Below, one piece after another: positions 52,197 through 57,542 of a DNA stretch of 64,000 bases. This DNA comes from Acetobacter ghanensis (GTDB lineage: Bacteria > Pseudomonadota > Alphaproteobacteria > Acetobacterales > Acetobacteraceae). Positions within the stretch are counted from its first letter, which is position 1, and every line of letters begins with the position of its first letter. The notes beneath the pieces were generated by a model. It had not been told where the DNA came from. It worked only from the letters and a program-made list of their open reading frames with translations, and did not search any database. The position numbers and the translations under genes were made by a program. The stretch lies in contig NZ_LN609302.1 in NCBI RefSeq assembly GCF_001499675.1, positions 1,339,896-1,403,895 of the forward strand. The letters run 5' to 3'.

Positions 52197-55100
52197 TCAG
52201 AACGAACCACTAAAGTATGACTGAAGTGGCGCAACATCAAGCGGTCCTTCACGCATTGCCGCAATCGCATGGATTGCAGCCCGTGCGCCCGCCATGGTGG
52301 TGTAGTGGGGCACGCCCAGCACAAGGGCGGAGCGGCGGATGTCAAAACTGTCCGCCACCGACTGTGCACCCTGCGCTGTATTAATGACCATCTGCACTTC
52401 GCCAGAGCGAATGGCGTCCACGCAGTGCGGGCGGCCTTCCAGCACCTTGTTGACCACGTTTACCTCAATGCCGGACTCACGCAGCTTGCGTGCGGTGCCC
52501 CGTGTGGCCACGATCTTGAAGCCCATGGAAGCCAGCAGGCGGCCAAGAGGCGGCAGTTGTGGCTTGTCGCTTTCGCGCACGGACAGGAACACCGTGCCAC
52601 TCATGGGCAGGCGTACGCCAGCGCCAAGCTGGGACTTGGCAAAGGCCCGCTCGAACGACGTATCCAGCCCCATGACCTCACCCGTGGAGCGCATTTCCGG
52701 CCCAAGGATGGTGTCCACTTCCGCAAAGCGGTTGAAAGGGAACACCGCTTCCTTAACCGCAACATGCGGCACTACGGCCCGGTCATCCAGATTGAAGGTG
52801 GAGAGCTTGCTGCCCGCCATAACGCGTGCGCCAATTTTGGCAACCGGAACACCCGTCGCCTTGGCCACGAACGGTACGGTGCGCGAGGCGCGAGGATTGA
52901 CCTCGAGCACAAAGATCTCCTGATCCTTGATGGCGTACTGGACGTTCATCAGCCCCACAATGCCAAGCTCGCGGGCCATGGCTTCGGTCTGGGCCTTAAG
53001 CTCGGTCACAATGGCGGGGGAGAGGGTATAAGGCGGCAGGGCGCAAGCGCTGTCGCCCGAGTGAATACCCGCTTCCTCAATGTGCTCCATAACCCCGGCC
53101 ACGTACACGTCCGTGCCATCGGCAATGCAGTCCACGTCCGCTTCAATCGCTTCGTTCAGGTAGCGGTCAAGCAGGATCGGGCCAGAGGAAATTTCGTGCC
53201 CGGCCACCCGCAGCACGTCACGCATGTAACGCTGGAGGGAGGCGCGGTCGTAAACAATTTCCATGGCCCGGCCGCCCAGAACATAGGAGGGGCGTACGAC
53301 GACGGGGTAACCCACCTGTTCGGCTACCTGTTCGGCTTCTTCAGGCGTGCGGGCAATGCCATTTTCAGGCTGGCGGAGGCCAAGCTTGTGCAGCATGGCC
53401 TGGAAGCGCTCGCGGTCTTCTGCACGGTCAATAGCGTCTGCAGGGGTGCCCAGCAGCGGAATACCCGCAGCTTCCAGCGCGCGGGAGAGCTTGAGCGGGG
53501 TCTGCCCACCATACTGCACGATGCAGCCTTTGACCGTCCCCTTACGCTGTTCGCAGCGGATAAGGGAGATCACGTCTTCCGCCGTCAGCGGTTCAAAATA
53601 CAGACGGTCAGATGTGTCATAGTCGGTCGAGACCGTCTCGGGGTTGCAGTTGACCATAATGGTTTCATACCCGGCCTCACGCAAAGCGTAAGCGGCATGA
53701 ACGCAGCAGTAGTCAAACTCGATGCCCTGACCAATCCGGTTGGGGCCACCACCAAGGATGACAATCTTTTCGCGGTCAGTCGGGTCCGATTCACAAATCG
53801 GCGGCGCAAAATGCCCTTCGTAGCTGGAATACATATAGGGCGTGGCCGAGGCGAACTCACCCGCGCAGGTGTCAATCCTGCGGTAAACCGGCGTAACGCC
53901 TGCTTCCGTGCGGAGCAGGGCAACCTCTTCAGGCTGTGTGCCGGACAGGCGGGAGAGCTGCACGTCTGAAAAGCCAAGGGCTTTAAGGCGGCGCAGGCTC
54001 TGGGCATCCTTGGGCAGGCCGTGGTGTTCGACTTCGCGCTCGGCATGGATGATTTTTTCCATCTCACGCAGGAACCACGGCTCAAACTTGCAGGCTTCGT
54101 GAATGGCCTCAACCGACAGGCCAGCCCGCAGTGCCTGTGCAGCCATGAGAATACGCTCCGGCCGAGGCTGGGAGAGTGCTGCGCGGAAGGCATCTTCACC
54201 CCCATCGCCGGGAACTTCCACGGGGTCCAGTCCATGCAGGCCGGTTTCCATCGAGCGCAGGCCCTTCTGGAGCGCTTCGGGGAAGGAGCGGCCAATGGCC
54301 ATGGCTTCCCCAACCGACTTCATGGAAGTGGAGAGCAGGGCCGGTGCGCCGGGGAATTTTTCAAACGTAAAGCGCGGAATCTTGACCACAACGTAGTCAA
54401 TGGTCGGCTCAAAGGAGGCAGGAGTTGTGCGCGTGATGTCGTTTTTCAGCTCATCCAGCGTGTAACCCACGGCCAGCTTGGCAGCGACCTTGGCAATGGG
54501 GAAGCCGGTGGCTTTGGATGCCAGAGCCGAGGAGCGCGAGACGCGGGGGTTCATCTCAATCACAACCATGCGGCCATCGGCGGGGTTTACGCCGAACTGC
54601 ACGTTGGAACCGCCCGTTTCCACCCCAATGGCACGCAGGCAGGCCAGCGAGGCATCGCGCATACGCTGGTATTCCTTGTCGGTCAGCGTAAGGGCAGGGG
54701 CTACGGTAATGGAGTCACCCGTATGGATGCCCATGGGGTCGATGTTTTCGATCGAGCAGATGATGATGCAGTTGTCCGCCGTGTCGCGCACAACTTCCAT
54801 TTCATACTCTTTCCAGCCCAGTACGGATTCCTCAACCAGCACTTCCGTGGTGGGGGAGGCATCCAGACCGGACAGGACAATCCGCTCGAACTCTTCACGG
54901 TTGTAGGCAATACCACCGCCCGAGCCGCCCATGGTAAAGGAAGGGCGGATAATGGTGGGGAAGCCAATCTGCTTGAGCGCTTCGTGCGCTTCGGCCAGCG
55001 TGTGGGCAATAAAGCTGCGCGGGCTTTCAATGCCAATGGCGTCCATGGCCTCGCGGAATTTCTGGCGATCTTCCGCACGGTCGATCACCTCGGCCTTGGC

Positions 55101-55451
55101 GCCAATCAGCTCAACATTGTGTTTTTCCAGAAAGCCCGAAGCATGGAGTGCCATGGCTGTGTTCAGGGCCGTCTGCCCGCCCATGGTGGGCAGCACTGCG
55201 TCGGGTTTTTCCTTGAGGATAATGCGCTCGACCACTTCCGGCGTAATGGGCTCCACATAGGTGGCGTCCGCAAGGCCGGGGTCGGTCATGATGGTGGCGG
55301 GGTTGGAGTTGACCAGAATAACCCGGTACCCTTCTTCCCGCAGGGCCTTGCAGGCCTGTGCGCCGGAATAGTCGAACTCGCACGCCTGACCGATAACAAT
55401 GGGACCGGCGCCGATGATGAGGATGGAGCGGATGTCTGTCCGTTTGGGCAT
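52197..55451 (-). CDS. carB: Carbamoyl-phosphate synthase large subunit
   Basis: Synthesises carbamoyl phosphate from ammonia, bicarbonate and 2 ATP for arginine and pyrimidine biosynthesis. 1084 residues, two homologous ATP-grasp halves ([29 protein letters not shown] at the start; [23 protein letters not shown] in the second half) and a C-terminal MGS-like allosteric domain (from about 950). [15 protein letters not shown] is the first ATP loop. 16 bp after carA. Confidence 0.97.
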
Positions 55452-55467: not shown

Positions 55468-56874
55468 TTAGTGCTTGACGCCGTTGGTGTCGATCAGGGT
55501 GACAAACCGTTCAAACAGATAAAAGCTGTCCGACGGGCCGGGGCTTGCCTCGGGGTGATACTGTACGGAAAAGGCCGCGTATTTGTCGGACGCTAGTCCT
55601 TCGTTTGACCCGTCAAACAGGCTGACATGGGTGACGTGTGCGTTCTCGGGCAGGGTTTTGGCATCCACGGCAAAACCGTGGTTCTGGCTGGTAATTTCCA
55701 CCTTGCCGGTTGCAAGGTCCTGCACAGGCTGGTTGGCACCGCGGTGGCCGCGTTCCATCTTGTAGGTTTTGGCCCCAAGAGCCTGCGCCAGCAGCTGGTG
55801 GCCAAGGCAGATGCCAAACAGCGGTATGCCTGCTTCCAGTACGGTGCGGATGGCAGGCACGGCGTAGGTGGCGGTGGCTGCCGGGTCGCCCGGACCGTTG
55901 GAGAGGAACACGCCTTCGGGCTTAAGGGCGAGGATCTGCTCACCCGTGGTTGTGGCGGGCACTACGGTCACGTCGCAGCCAGCGCTTACAAGGCAGCGCA
56001 GAATGTTGCGTTTTGCTCCGTAATCCACGGCCACAACCTTGCGGCGGCGGCCTGTGGGGGTTGCGGTGCCGTTGGGCCACGACCACACACCTTCCGACCA
56101 GTCATAGGGCGCTGCACAGGTGACTTCCTTGGCAAGGTCCATGCCTTCCAAGCCCGGCCATGCGGCCACTTCTGCGGCAATGGCGTCCAGGTCGAACTTG
56201 CCATCAGCAGGGAATACGAGGGCTGCGGTCTGTGCGCCACCATCACGGATTTTCAGGGTCAGGCTGCGGGTGTCCACGCCGGCAATGCCGGGCATTCCGT
56301 TCTGCTTCAGCCATGCGTCAAGGCTGCTGGTGGCGCGCCAGTTTGCCTGTTCGGTCGGGTCTTCCTTGACCACCAGCCCAAGGGCGAAGGGGCGCGCAGC
56401 TTCGTCATCTTCCGCATTTGTGCCGACATTGCCGATATGCGGGAAGGTGAAGGTAATGATCTGCCCGGCAAAGGAGGGGTCGGTCAGGGTTTCCTGATAC
56501 CCGGTCATGCCGGTGGAAAAGCAGATTTCCCCAATGGCGGGCTTGGGTGTGAAGGCGCCAAAGCCTTTCCCCCACAATACGCTGCCATCTGCGAGAACAA
56601 GAGCGGCGGTCGCGCCATCCGGGCGGGCTTGAGGCATGGATGATCCTGTCTGGCTGCCTCCCGCAAGCGGGGAGGGTCTGTCTGTAACTGCGGGTGCGGG
56701 CTGGAGGTCCTGAAGGGAAAGACCCGTGGCGTGGGCAATGGCCGGCCAGTGGCGGGAGGGAATGGCCTGCGCCTGCCGCCATTTGCGAATGGCCTCGGTG
56801 CCAACGCCGGTCAGTCGCGCTGTGGCTTCCGGACCGCCTATGCGGGCGATAATGGAGTCGATTGACATGGGCAT
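55468..56874 (-). CDS. carA: Carbamoyl-phosphate synthase small subunit with N-terminal helix-turn-helix
   Basis: Glutaminase subunit delivering ammonia to CarB. 468 residues against about 380 usual: residues 4-60 form a YdaS/Cro-like helix-turn-helix ([19 protein letters not shown] ... [20 protein letters not shown] ... LQDLQP), then a Pro/Gly/Ser linker (61-86), then a complete CarA from about 88. Catalytic Cys356 (FGICLGHQ), His440 and Glu442 are present. GGGAGGA lies before the long start at 56874. An internal ATG at 56637 with CAGGA upstream could make a normal-length CarA, so two products are possible. Confidence 0.9.
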
Positions 56875-56923
56875 GTGCGAACTGGTTCCTCCCGGAGCGC
56901 TCTTTTAGCAGCATGTCATGCGG

Positions 56924-56986
56924 GTGGGAAGAAATTTCCCACATAGCGCGTAGGGACAGTGCGTCCGGTGGGAAGTTTATTCCCAG
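56924..56986. promoter_or_regulatory. Pair of GTGGGAA-N5-TTCCCA dyads upstream of carA
   Basis: GTGGGAA-GAAAT-TTCCCAC (56924-56942) and GTGGGAA-GTTTA-TTCCCAG (56968-56986), centres 44 bp apart, in the 212-bp gap between divergent carA and yqeY. The first arm is 50 bp from the carA start codon. Duplicated dyads of this type look like an operator for a dimeric regulator; the protein is unknown. Confidence 0.65.
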
Positions 56987-57086: not shown

Positions 57087-57542
57087 ATGACCCTTCGTGA
57101 AAGCCTGATGGCAGATCTGAAAACGGCAATGAAGGCGGGCGAAAGCGCGCGTGTTGCTACCATTCGCATGATTACGGCCAAGCTCAAGGACGTGGAAATT
57201 GCAGGCCGTGCGAAGGGGAACGAAGGGCTGAGCGAGGACGAAGGCATTTCCGCCCTGCGCGGGATGATTAAGTCCCGCACGGAATCCGCCAACCTCTACC
57301 GCGAAGCCGGGCGTCCGGAACTGGCGGATAAGGAAGAAGCGGAAATTGCCGTTATTCGCGCTTACCTGCCGCCTGAACTGGATGAGGCAACCCTGAACAG
57401 CGCAGTAGAAGAAGCCATTGCCAGCACCGGTGCAGCCTCCATGAAGGACATGGGCAAGGTCATGGGTGTGCTCAAAGGTAAATTTGGCGCAGCGCTGGAT
57501 ATGGGGCGCGCCAGTGCTGCCGTAAAAGCACGGTTGGGCTAA
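57087..57542 (+). CDS. GatB/YqeY domain protein
   Basis: 151 residues, the standalone YqeY-type domain found at the C terminus of GatB (MTLRESLMADLKTAMKAGESARVATIRMI is its usual start). Often lies directly before dnaG. Proposed to act in tRNA-dependent amidation or on RNA, not established. GAGCGTAGAGAAGT precedes the ATG. Divergent from carA. Confidence 0.93.
   Translation: MTLRESLMADLKTAMKAGESARVATIRMITAKLKDVEIAGRAKGNEGLSEDEGISALRGMIKSRTESANLYREAGRPELADKEEAEIAVIRAYLPPELDEATLNSAVEEAIASTGAASMKDMGKVMGVLKGKFGAALDMGRASAAVKARLG

Follow-up and report, generated by a model that had tools for sequence, protein, structure and literature searches.

A predicted autogenous repressor role for the carbamoyl phosphate synthase subunit CarA of the Acetobacteraceae, with a Cro/YdaS-like helix-turn-helix and a 17-bp palindrome upstream of carAB

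The carAB operon lies at the branch point of arginine and pyrimidine synthesis. Among enzymes that double as repressors, BirA binds DNA by a winged helix-turn-helix (HTH) and PutA by a ribbon-helix-helix. The biotin ligase/repressor BirA and the proline dehydrogenase/repressor PutA are presented, in the excerpted text of PMC6978683, as trigger enzymes, DNA-binding enzymes that repress genes of their own pathway. In their working, these two appear nearest to the model proposed here for CarA of the Acetobacteraceae, whose role is predicted. CarA differs from both in being a subunit of a heteromeric synthase and in the Cro/YdaS-like type of its domain, as well as in having exact sites, in its own genome, only at its own operon and in an internal start that may give a domain-less form. 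The control of E. coli carAB involves many separate factors according to the excerpted text of PMC6245113, including the enzymes PepA, which wraps DNA, and PyrH, for which no direct DNA binding was found; E. coli CarA is not described as a regulator in that text. PepA and PyrH resemble the CarA model as enzymes acting in the transcriptional control of the same operon, but in E. coli it is other enzymes that act.

The Cro proteins of phages N15, Xfaso 1 and P22, together with YdaS, appear similar to the CarA HTH in fold and in the layout of the recognition helix. These phage and prophage proteins are small and free-standing, whereas the CarA HTH is part of a housekeeping enzyme throughout the family. 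Cro operators are typically palindromes of about 17 bp. A similar HTH fold on a metabolic enzyme is present in the HppE type; to our knowledge, the HTH of HppE and related phosphonate enzymes has no DNA role, and we know of no operator association for enzymes of this type. No prior report on point was found among the titles and abstract beginnings of open-licence papers.

The locus described here lies in a stretch of 64,000 nucleotides of the Acetobacter ghanensis genome (the window), and its features are collected in Table 1. The gap between carA and its divergent neighbour measures 212 bp; the divergent open reading frames (ORFs) begin at 57087 and extend to 61530, and we take them to be yqeY, dnaG and rpoD.

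Table 1. Observed and predicted features of the carA locus, numbered by position in the window.
Feature	Position	Strand	Remark
carB, large subunit	52197..55451	(-)	16 bp 3' of carA; remainder of the proposed autoregulated operon
carA, long form CarA-L, 468 aa	55468..56874	(-)	HTH, linker, CPSase small-chain domain and glutamine amidotransferase
N-terminal Cro/YdaS-like HTH, residues 4-57	56704..56865	(-)	profile matches, model and family conservation
Predicted recognition helix, residues 26-35	56770..56799	(-)	Gln34 (56773-56775) is the proposed specificity residue
Linker rich in Pro/Ser/Gly, residues 58-89	56608..56703	(-)	model confidence low there
Internal ATG (Met80), proposed start of CarA-S, 389 aa, without HTH	56635..56637	(-)	
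AGGA, Shine-Dalgarno-like, internal start	56644..56647	(-)	
GGGAGGA, Shine-Dalgarno-like, long start	56887..56893	(-)	
Predicted -10 hexamer TAAAAG	56902..56907	(-)	preceded by TGC (extended -10-like); 17 bp after operator arm
Proximal operator O1 (predicted), TGGGAAATTTCTTCCCA	56925..56941	(-)	right arm 56925-56930 at the predicted -35
Distal operator O2 (predicted), TGGGAATAAACTTCCCA	56969..56985	(-)	44 bp from O1

The N-terminal domain of CarA and its distribution

The CPSase and GATase domains were found by profile search (E values of 2.9e-47 and 1e-53, respectively) in the same ORF as the HTH-like domain, and CarA is predicted to be a functional CPSase small subunit, both domains being present and carB lying alongside. 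The claim of an earlier note, that CarA carries an N-terminal HTH of YdaS/Cro type, was upheld by the profile searches, though with scores under the Pfam cut-offs. The window HTH scored 25.1 bits against YdaS_toxin (PF15943, cut-off 30.0) and 22.5 bits against P22_Cro (PF14549, cut-off 30.2), and the HTH of five relatives was likewise below the cut-offs, with 22.0-29.1 bits for YdaS_toxin and at most 25.8 bits for P22_Cro; because of these scores, the domain is called Cro/YdaS-like and is not filed under either Pfam entry. At E <= 0.01, YdaS_toxin and P22_Cro were matched by 20 and 19, respectively, of 20 aligned rows, and one of the two entries was precomputed for nine of 120 homologues (hand count, among the matches listed). 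Against the PDB, the A1 profile matched N15 Cro (2hin, E = 0.0015), XPH1 and Xfaso 1 Cro. The AlphaFold2 model displayed the expected helices, with residues 26-35 as the recognition helix, and Foldseek and VIA-align both ranked Cro proteins first, with weak statistics. A Cro/repressor-type fold of five helices, with the HTH formed by helices 2-3, is a tentative assignment. Twelve positions were invariant in the 20-row alignment (G13, G14, A19, A28, R30, K31, W32, R33, P39, H42, W43 and G51). The dN/dS values of the HTH codons were 0.04-0.20 in ten Acetobacter pairs, similar to those of the enzyme part (0.08-0.22 in seven computable pairs), and the HTH reading frame is under purifying selection in Acetobacter. 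The CarA polypeptide is itself predicted to carry a domain of DNA-binding type, as a trigger enzyme does.

A CarA match was obtained in 298 of 299 family genomes and, among the matches listed (the better half), it started at residues 1-5. The loci of 200 of the 299 genomes were inspected, comprising the best-scoring rows and genomes chosen because they scored low or lacked an exact operator site, in batches of 30, 30, 100, 29 new and 11; the HTH was flagged by a correctly placed [RK]W[RK] motif together with a match beginning before residue 20. The conservation of the extension among Acetobacteraceae CarA, on which the earlier claim had been made to depend, was confirmed, with the HTH present in 194 of the 200 inspected genomes. 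The named loci in the CarA tree include Acetobacter, Gluconobacter, Komagataeibacter, Roseomonas, Acidocella and others. Among the remaining six genomes, three have a CarA truncated or split by the end of a contig (L133, L136 and L137) and three lack the HTH, namely G210 (Acetobacter, 1.7 Mb) and G029 and G116 (one genus, 1.9-2.1 Mb). Within the 49 genomes of the genus Acetobacter, a CarA match from residue 83 was found only in G210 and G712, the latter (1.5 Mb) with a match that starts at a contig end; a full carA match is missing from G709 (68% complete), and the match in G704 is broken. CarA without HTH is seen in small-genome lineages of 1.5-2.1 Mb (G210, with loci L119/L315; G029, L138; G116, L139; and G712). 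Class-wide, in 385 genomes, the CarA matches from outside the family began at residue 22 or later among the matches listed. The HTH profile gave no match at E <= 1 in 71 control loci (68 from other groups and three HTH-less family loci) and detected ten of ten positive loci.

Two further observations concern single genomes. In G088, the HTH and CarA proper lie in separate frames (L312:343-912 and 527-1756) with two operators present; an assembly frameshift and a real split cannot be told apart. The MAGs at L010 and L020, labelled Asaia bogorensis and Acidobacteria, have a CarA that falls with Roseomonas-type rows or a core identical to that of G080, a genome of the family, and their labels are probably wrong.

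The palindrome upstream of carA and residue 34

The palindrome TGGGAA-N5-TTCCCA spans 17 bp, and O1 and O2 are its sole exact copies in the window. The whole 2.84-Mb genome contains exactly these two, both just upstream of carA, and none of the reversed-pattern control. When one mismatch was allowed, six further sites were obtained in this genome versus eight for the control pattern, so that no target besides carA is supported and a wider regulon in the genome was rejected. Exact sites, usually one or two per genome, were found in 189 of the 299 family genomes and the reversed control in 17 (hand count), and 43 of 46 listed exact sites lie within 150 bp upstream of carA (34 genomes with known carA position, hand count). 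G072 has 11 exact sites, other genomes having at most three; the excess possibly reflects a repeat or a widened regulon.

In the 194 HTH-bearing genomes, the core GGAA-N5-TTCC was found no more than 160 bp upstream of carA in 189, whereas the spacer controls N3, N4, N6 and N7 gave 0, 2, 0 and 0, respectively, and the pattern controls gave 0 for TTCC-N5-GGAA and 1 for the reversed core. Within 200 bp, a perfect core is present in 190 of the 194 and a core with at most one mismatch in all of them. Two or three sites occur at 178 of the 194 loci, one core mismatch being allowed, with a commonest site-to-site spacing of 38-39 bp (68 of 113 loci with two perfect sites). Upstream of carA, the core was absent from all three HTH-less family genomes having upstream DNA, which represent two lineages, and from 67 of 67 loci of other groups within 160 bp.

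Residue 34, which directly follows RKWR, is Gln in most of the inspected genomes, and N15 Cro also has Gln at the matching position of the profile alignment. Among the 566 half-sites that go with Gln34, 507 have G as their second base (base 2), and among the 30 that go with Ser34, 27 have C, mostly as CCGGAA or GCGGAA. There are exceptions: base 2 is C in three Gln rows, two of which share an identical core, and A in the Gln row L232; His occurs once with C and once with G, and the Thr rows are mixed. In a tree of 113 CarA cores, non-Gln residues require five changes, and two Ser34 clades are separated by Gln/G rows, but not by starred branches, so that a single origin of non-Gln is still allowed by the tree. 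The covariation suggests that the CarA helix itself may read the site, on the strength of few independent events. L118 and L262, Gln34/G-type rows between the two Ser34/C-type clades, are natural material for the recognition code.

Enzyme-fused HTH domains need not bind DNA, and the palindrome could instead be the operator of a separate, unlinked factor controlling carAB, with the CarA HTH serving otherwise or not at all. This is unlikely: exact sites are found nowhere else in the A. ghanensis genome, the sites are missing in the three inspectable HTH-less family genomes as well as in the 67 loci of other groups, and the outer operator base tends to follow CarA residue 34. A second factor would need to track all three.

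Promoter geometry and the two starts of carA

In 117 of the 194 genomes (the spacer type), 11-15 nt separate the end of the last site from the assigned start codon, four of an initial 121 loci (L084, L087, L099 and L102), with distances of 0 or -2, having been excluded as false site calls. ATG was tried before other start codons in this assignment, so the long starts are assigned rather than proven. TTG stands exactly 6-4 nt before the site in 106 of the 117 loci and, in the 121-locus set with the four false calls, in any other register in 14 or fewer. The site is followed, in the same 121 loci, by T/C, then A (87%) and then T (57%), which is -10-like. The predicted operator of the spacer type would therefore coincide with the 17-bp spacer between the -35 and -10 elements. 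About 6-8 nt lie between the end of the predicted -10 and the start codon, an arrangement like that of leaderless mRNAs. For Gluconobacter oxydans, 62 leaderless mRNAs are described in the excerpted text of PMC5756330, and the term carA is absent from the main text of that paper. At the other 73 loci, including the window, the right arm TTCCCA occupies the expected -35 position, and T (75%) and A (77%) are found at the start of the would-be -10, exactly 17 bp after the arm. A simple consensus sigma-70 scan returned no promoter in the window, and the -10 listed in Table 1 was derived from the family comparison. With the operator within the -35/-10 spacer or over the -35, a bound protein would exclude RNA polymerase. 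On the divergent strand, an open frame starts no more than 90 nt from the distal operator in 151 of the 178 two-site relatives, which makes an effect on that operon conceivable; the idea that the distal site controls the divergent gene was rejected, no promoter hexamers being apparent in the opposite-strand base composition of the 178 loci.

The same geometry bears on whether the palindrome acts as an RNA hairpin, an attenuator or leader element in the carA mRNA. An inverted repeat with a 5-nt loop has the form of a hairpin, changed arms can remain complementary (CCGGAA/TTCCGG), and a match resembling a terminator, at 56954-56938, overlaps O1. The operator, however, lies upstream of the predicted transcription start in both promoter types and would not be transcribed from that promoter, for which reason the hairpin was rejected; furthermore, the inner GGAA/TTCC is conserved as sequence, beyond pairing, and two or three copies are present at most loci. 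An RNA element is accordingly considered most improbable. HppE, HEPD and MPnS also appeared among the similar folds in the Foldseek and VIA-align comparisons, but a structural or oligomerising HTH that does not bind DNA is very hard to credit, as it would not explain the operator, where this lies in the promoter, why site and domain are missing together, or the residue-34 link.

Signals for a second start are frequent in the linker. Linkers without a recognisable end were dropped from the 194 loci, leaving 170 (24 dropped) or 165 (29 dropped). Met is present in 114 of the 165 readable linkers, and in 90 of these it is preceded by a properly spaced Shine-Dalgarno 4-mer, versus 12.7 expected from codon shuffling. 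In the set of 170, ATG, GTG or TTG with a Shine-Dalgarno sequence was found inside 103 linkers (18.0 expected from codon shuffles) and ATG alone inside 92 (12.6 expected); by comparison, 76 of 742 Met codons of the enzyme part have one. The other 67 of the 170 linkers have no internal start with a Shine-Dalgarno sequence, so that two forms are not general. At the corresponding position, the G210 CarA, which has no HTH, starts with AGACAGGAT, identical to the internal start of the window. At spacer-type loci with a readable linker, 89 of 98 have no Shine-Dalgarno sequence at the long start, and 53 of these 89 have an internal one. These signals make it likely that both starts are used, giving two products in many species.

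The internal Shine-Dalgarno sequence and the start of the G210 protein would also agree with the short CarA alone being made, the upstream frame being a mis-annotated leader, but this is hardly tenable, given that the HTH codons evolve as protein in Acetobacter, that the HTH is kept family-wide and that spacer-type genomes have a predicted -10 suitably spaced upstream of the long start.

Proposed autorepression of carAB and its significance

CarA of the Acetobacteraceae is very probably a trigger enzyme, an autogenous repressor of carAB that would act through the 17-bp palindrome. The site statistics and the geometry fit a putative operator at its own promoter strongly, the promoter itself being predicted. 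The earlier guess of a moonlighting regulator, which named no target site, gains support from the predicted operator upstream of carA, its position in the promoter, the joint absence and the residue-34 link, all of them comparisons of sequence. In the mechanism envisaged, paired N-terminal Cro-like HTH domains would occupy TGGGAA-N5-TTCCCA as a dimer, and the occupied site would keep RNA polymerase off the carAB promoter; the second site, mostly 38-39 bp further up (44 bp in the window), may add cooperativity or looping. The linker start would yield an HTH-less CarA in many species. The synthase containing CarA-S would not repress, and CarA-L would be a gauge of CarA level or of CPSase assembly. 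One gene would thus encode two proteins, a leaderless or weakly led CarA-L repressor that reads CPSase assembly or level and a Shine-Dalgarno-started CarA-S that is the bulk enzyme subunit, a division of labour that is tentatively preferred. E. coli CPSase forms oligomers with ornithine and a heterodimer with UMP, according to the excerpt of PMC6245113, and since UMP there favours the heterodimer, a repressor governed simply by oligomer state would work in the opposite sense to UMP feedback. A sensor of the level of unassembled CarA is considered as likely as an oligomer-dependent repressor.

In the Acetobacteraceae, a repressor of phage type seems to have become joined to the enzyme itself. 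If true, this would be a clean case of a metabolic enzyme turned transcription factor, in which the natural variants of helix and operator would let the recognition code be read, and the carA promoter could find use, as it stands or retuned, in industrial acetic acid bacteria. If the two-protein reading also holds, the supply of pyrimidine and arginine precursors in these organisms would be run by an enzyme-built repressor, with its operator inside the promoter spacer.
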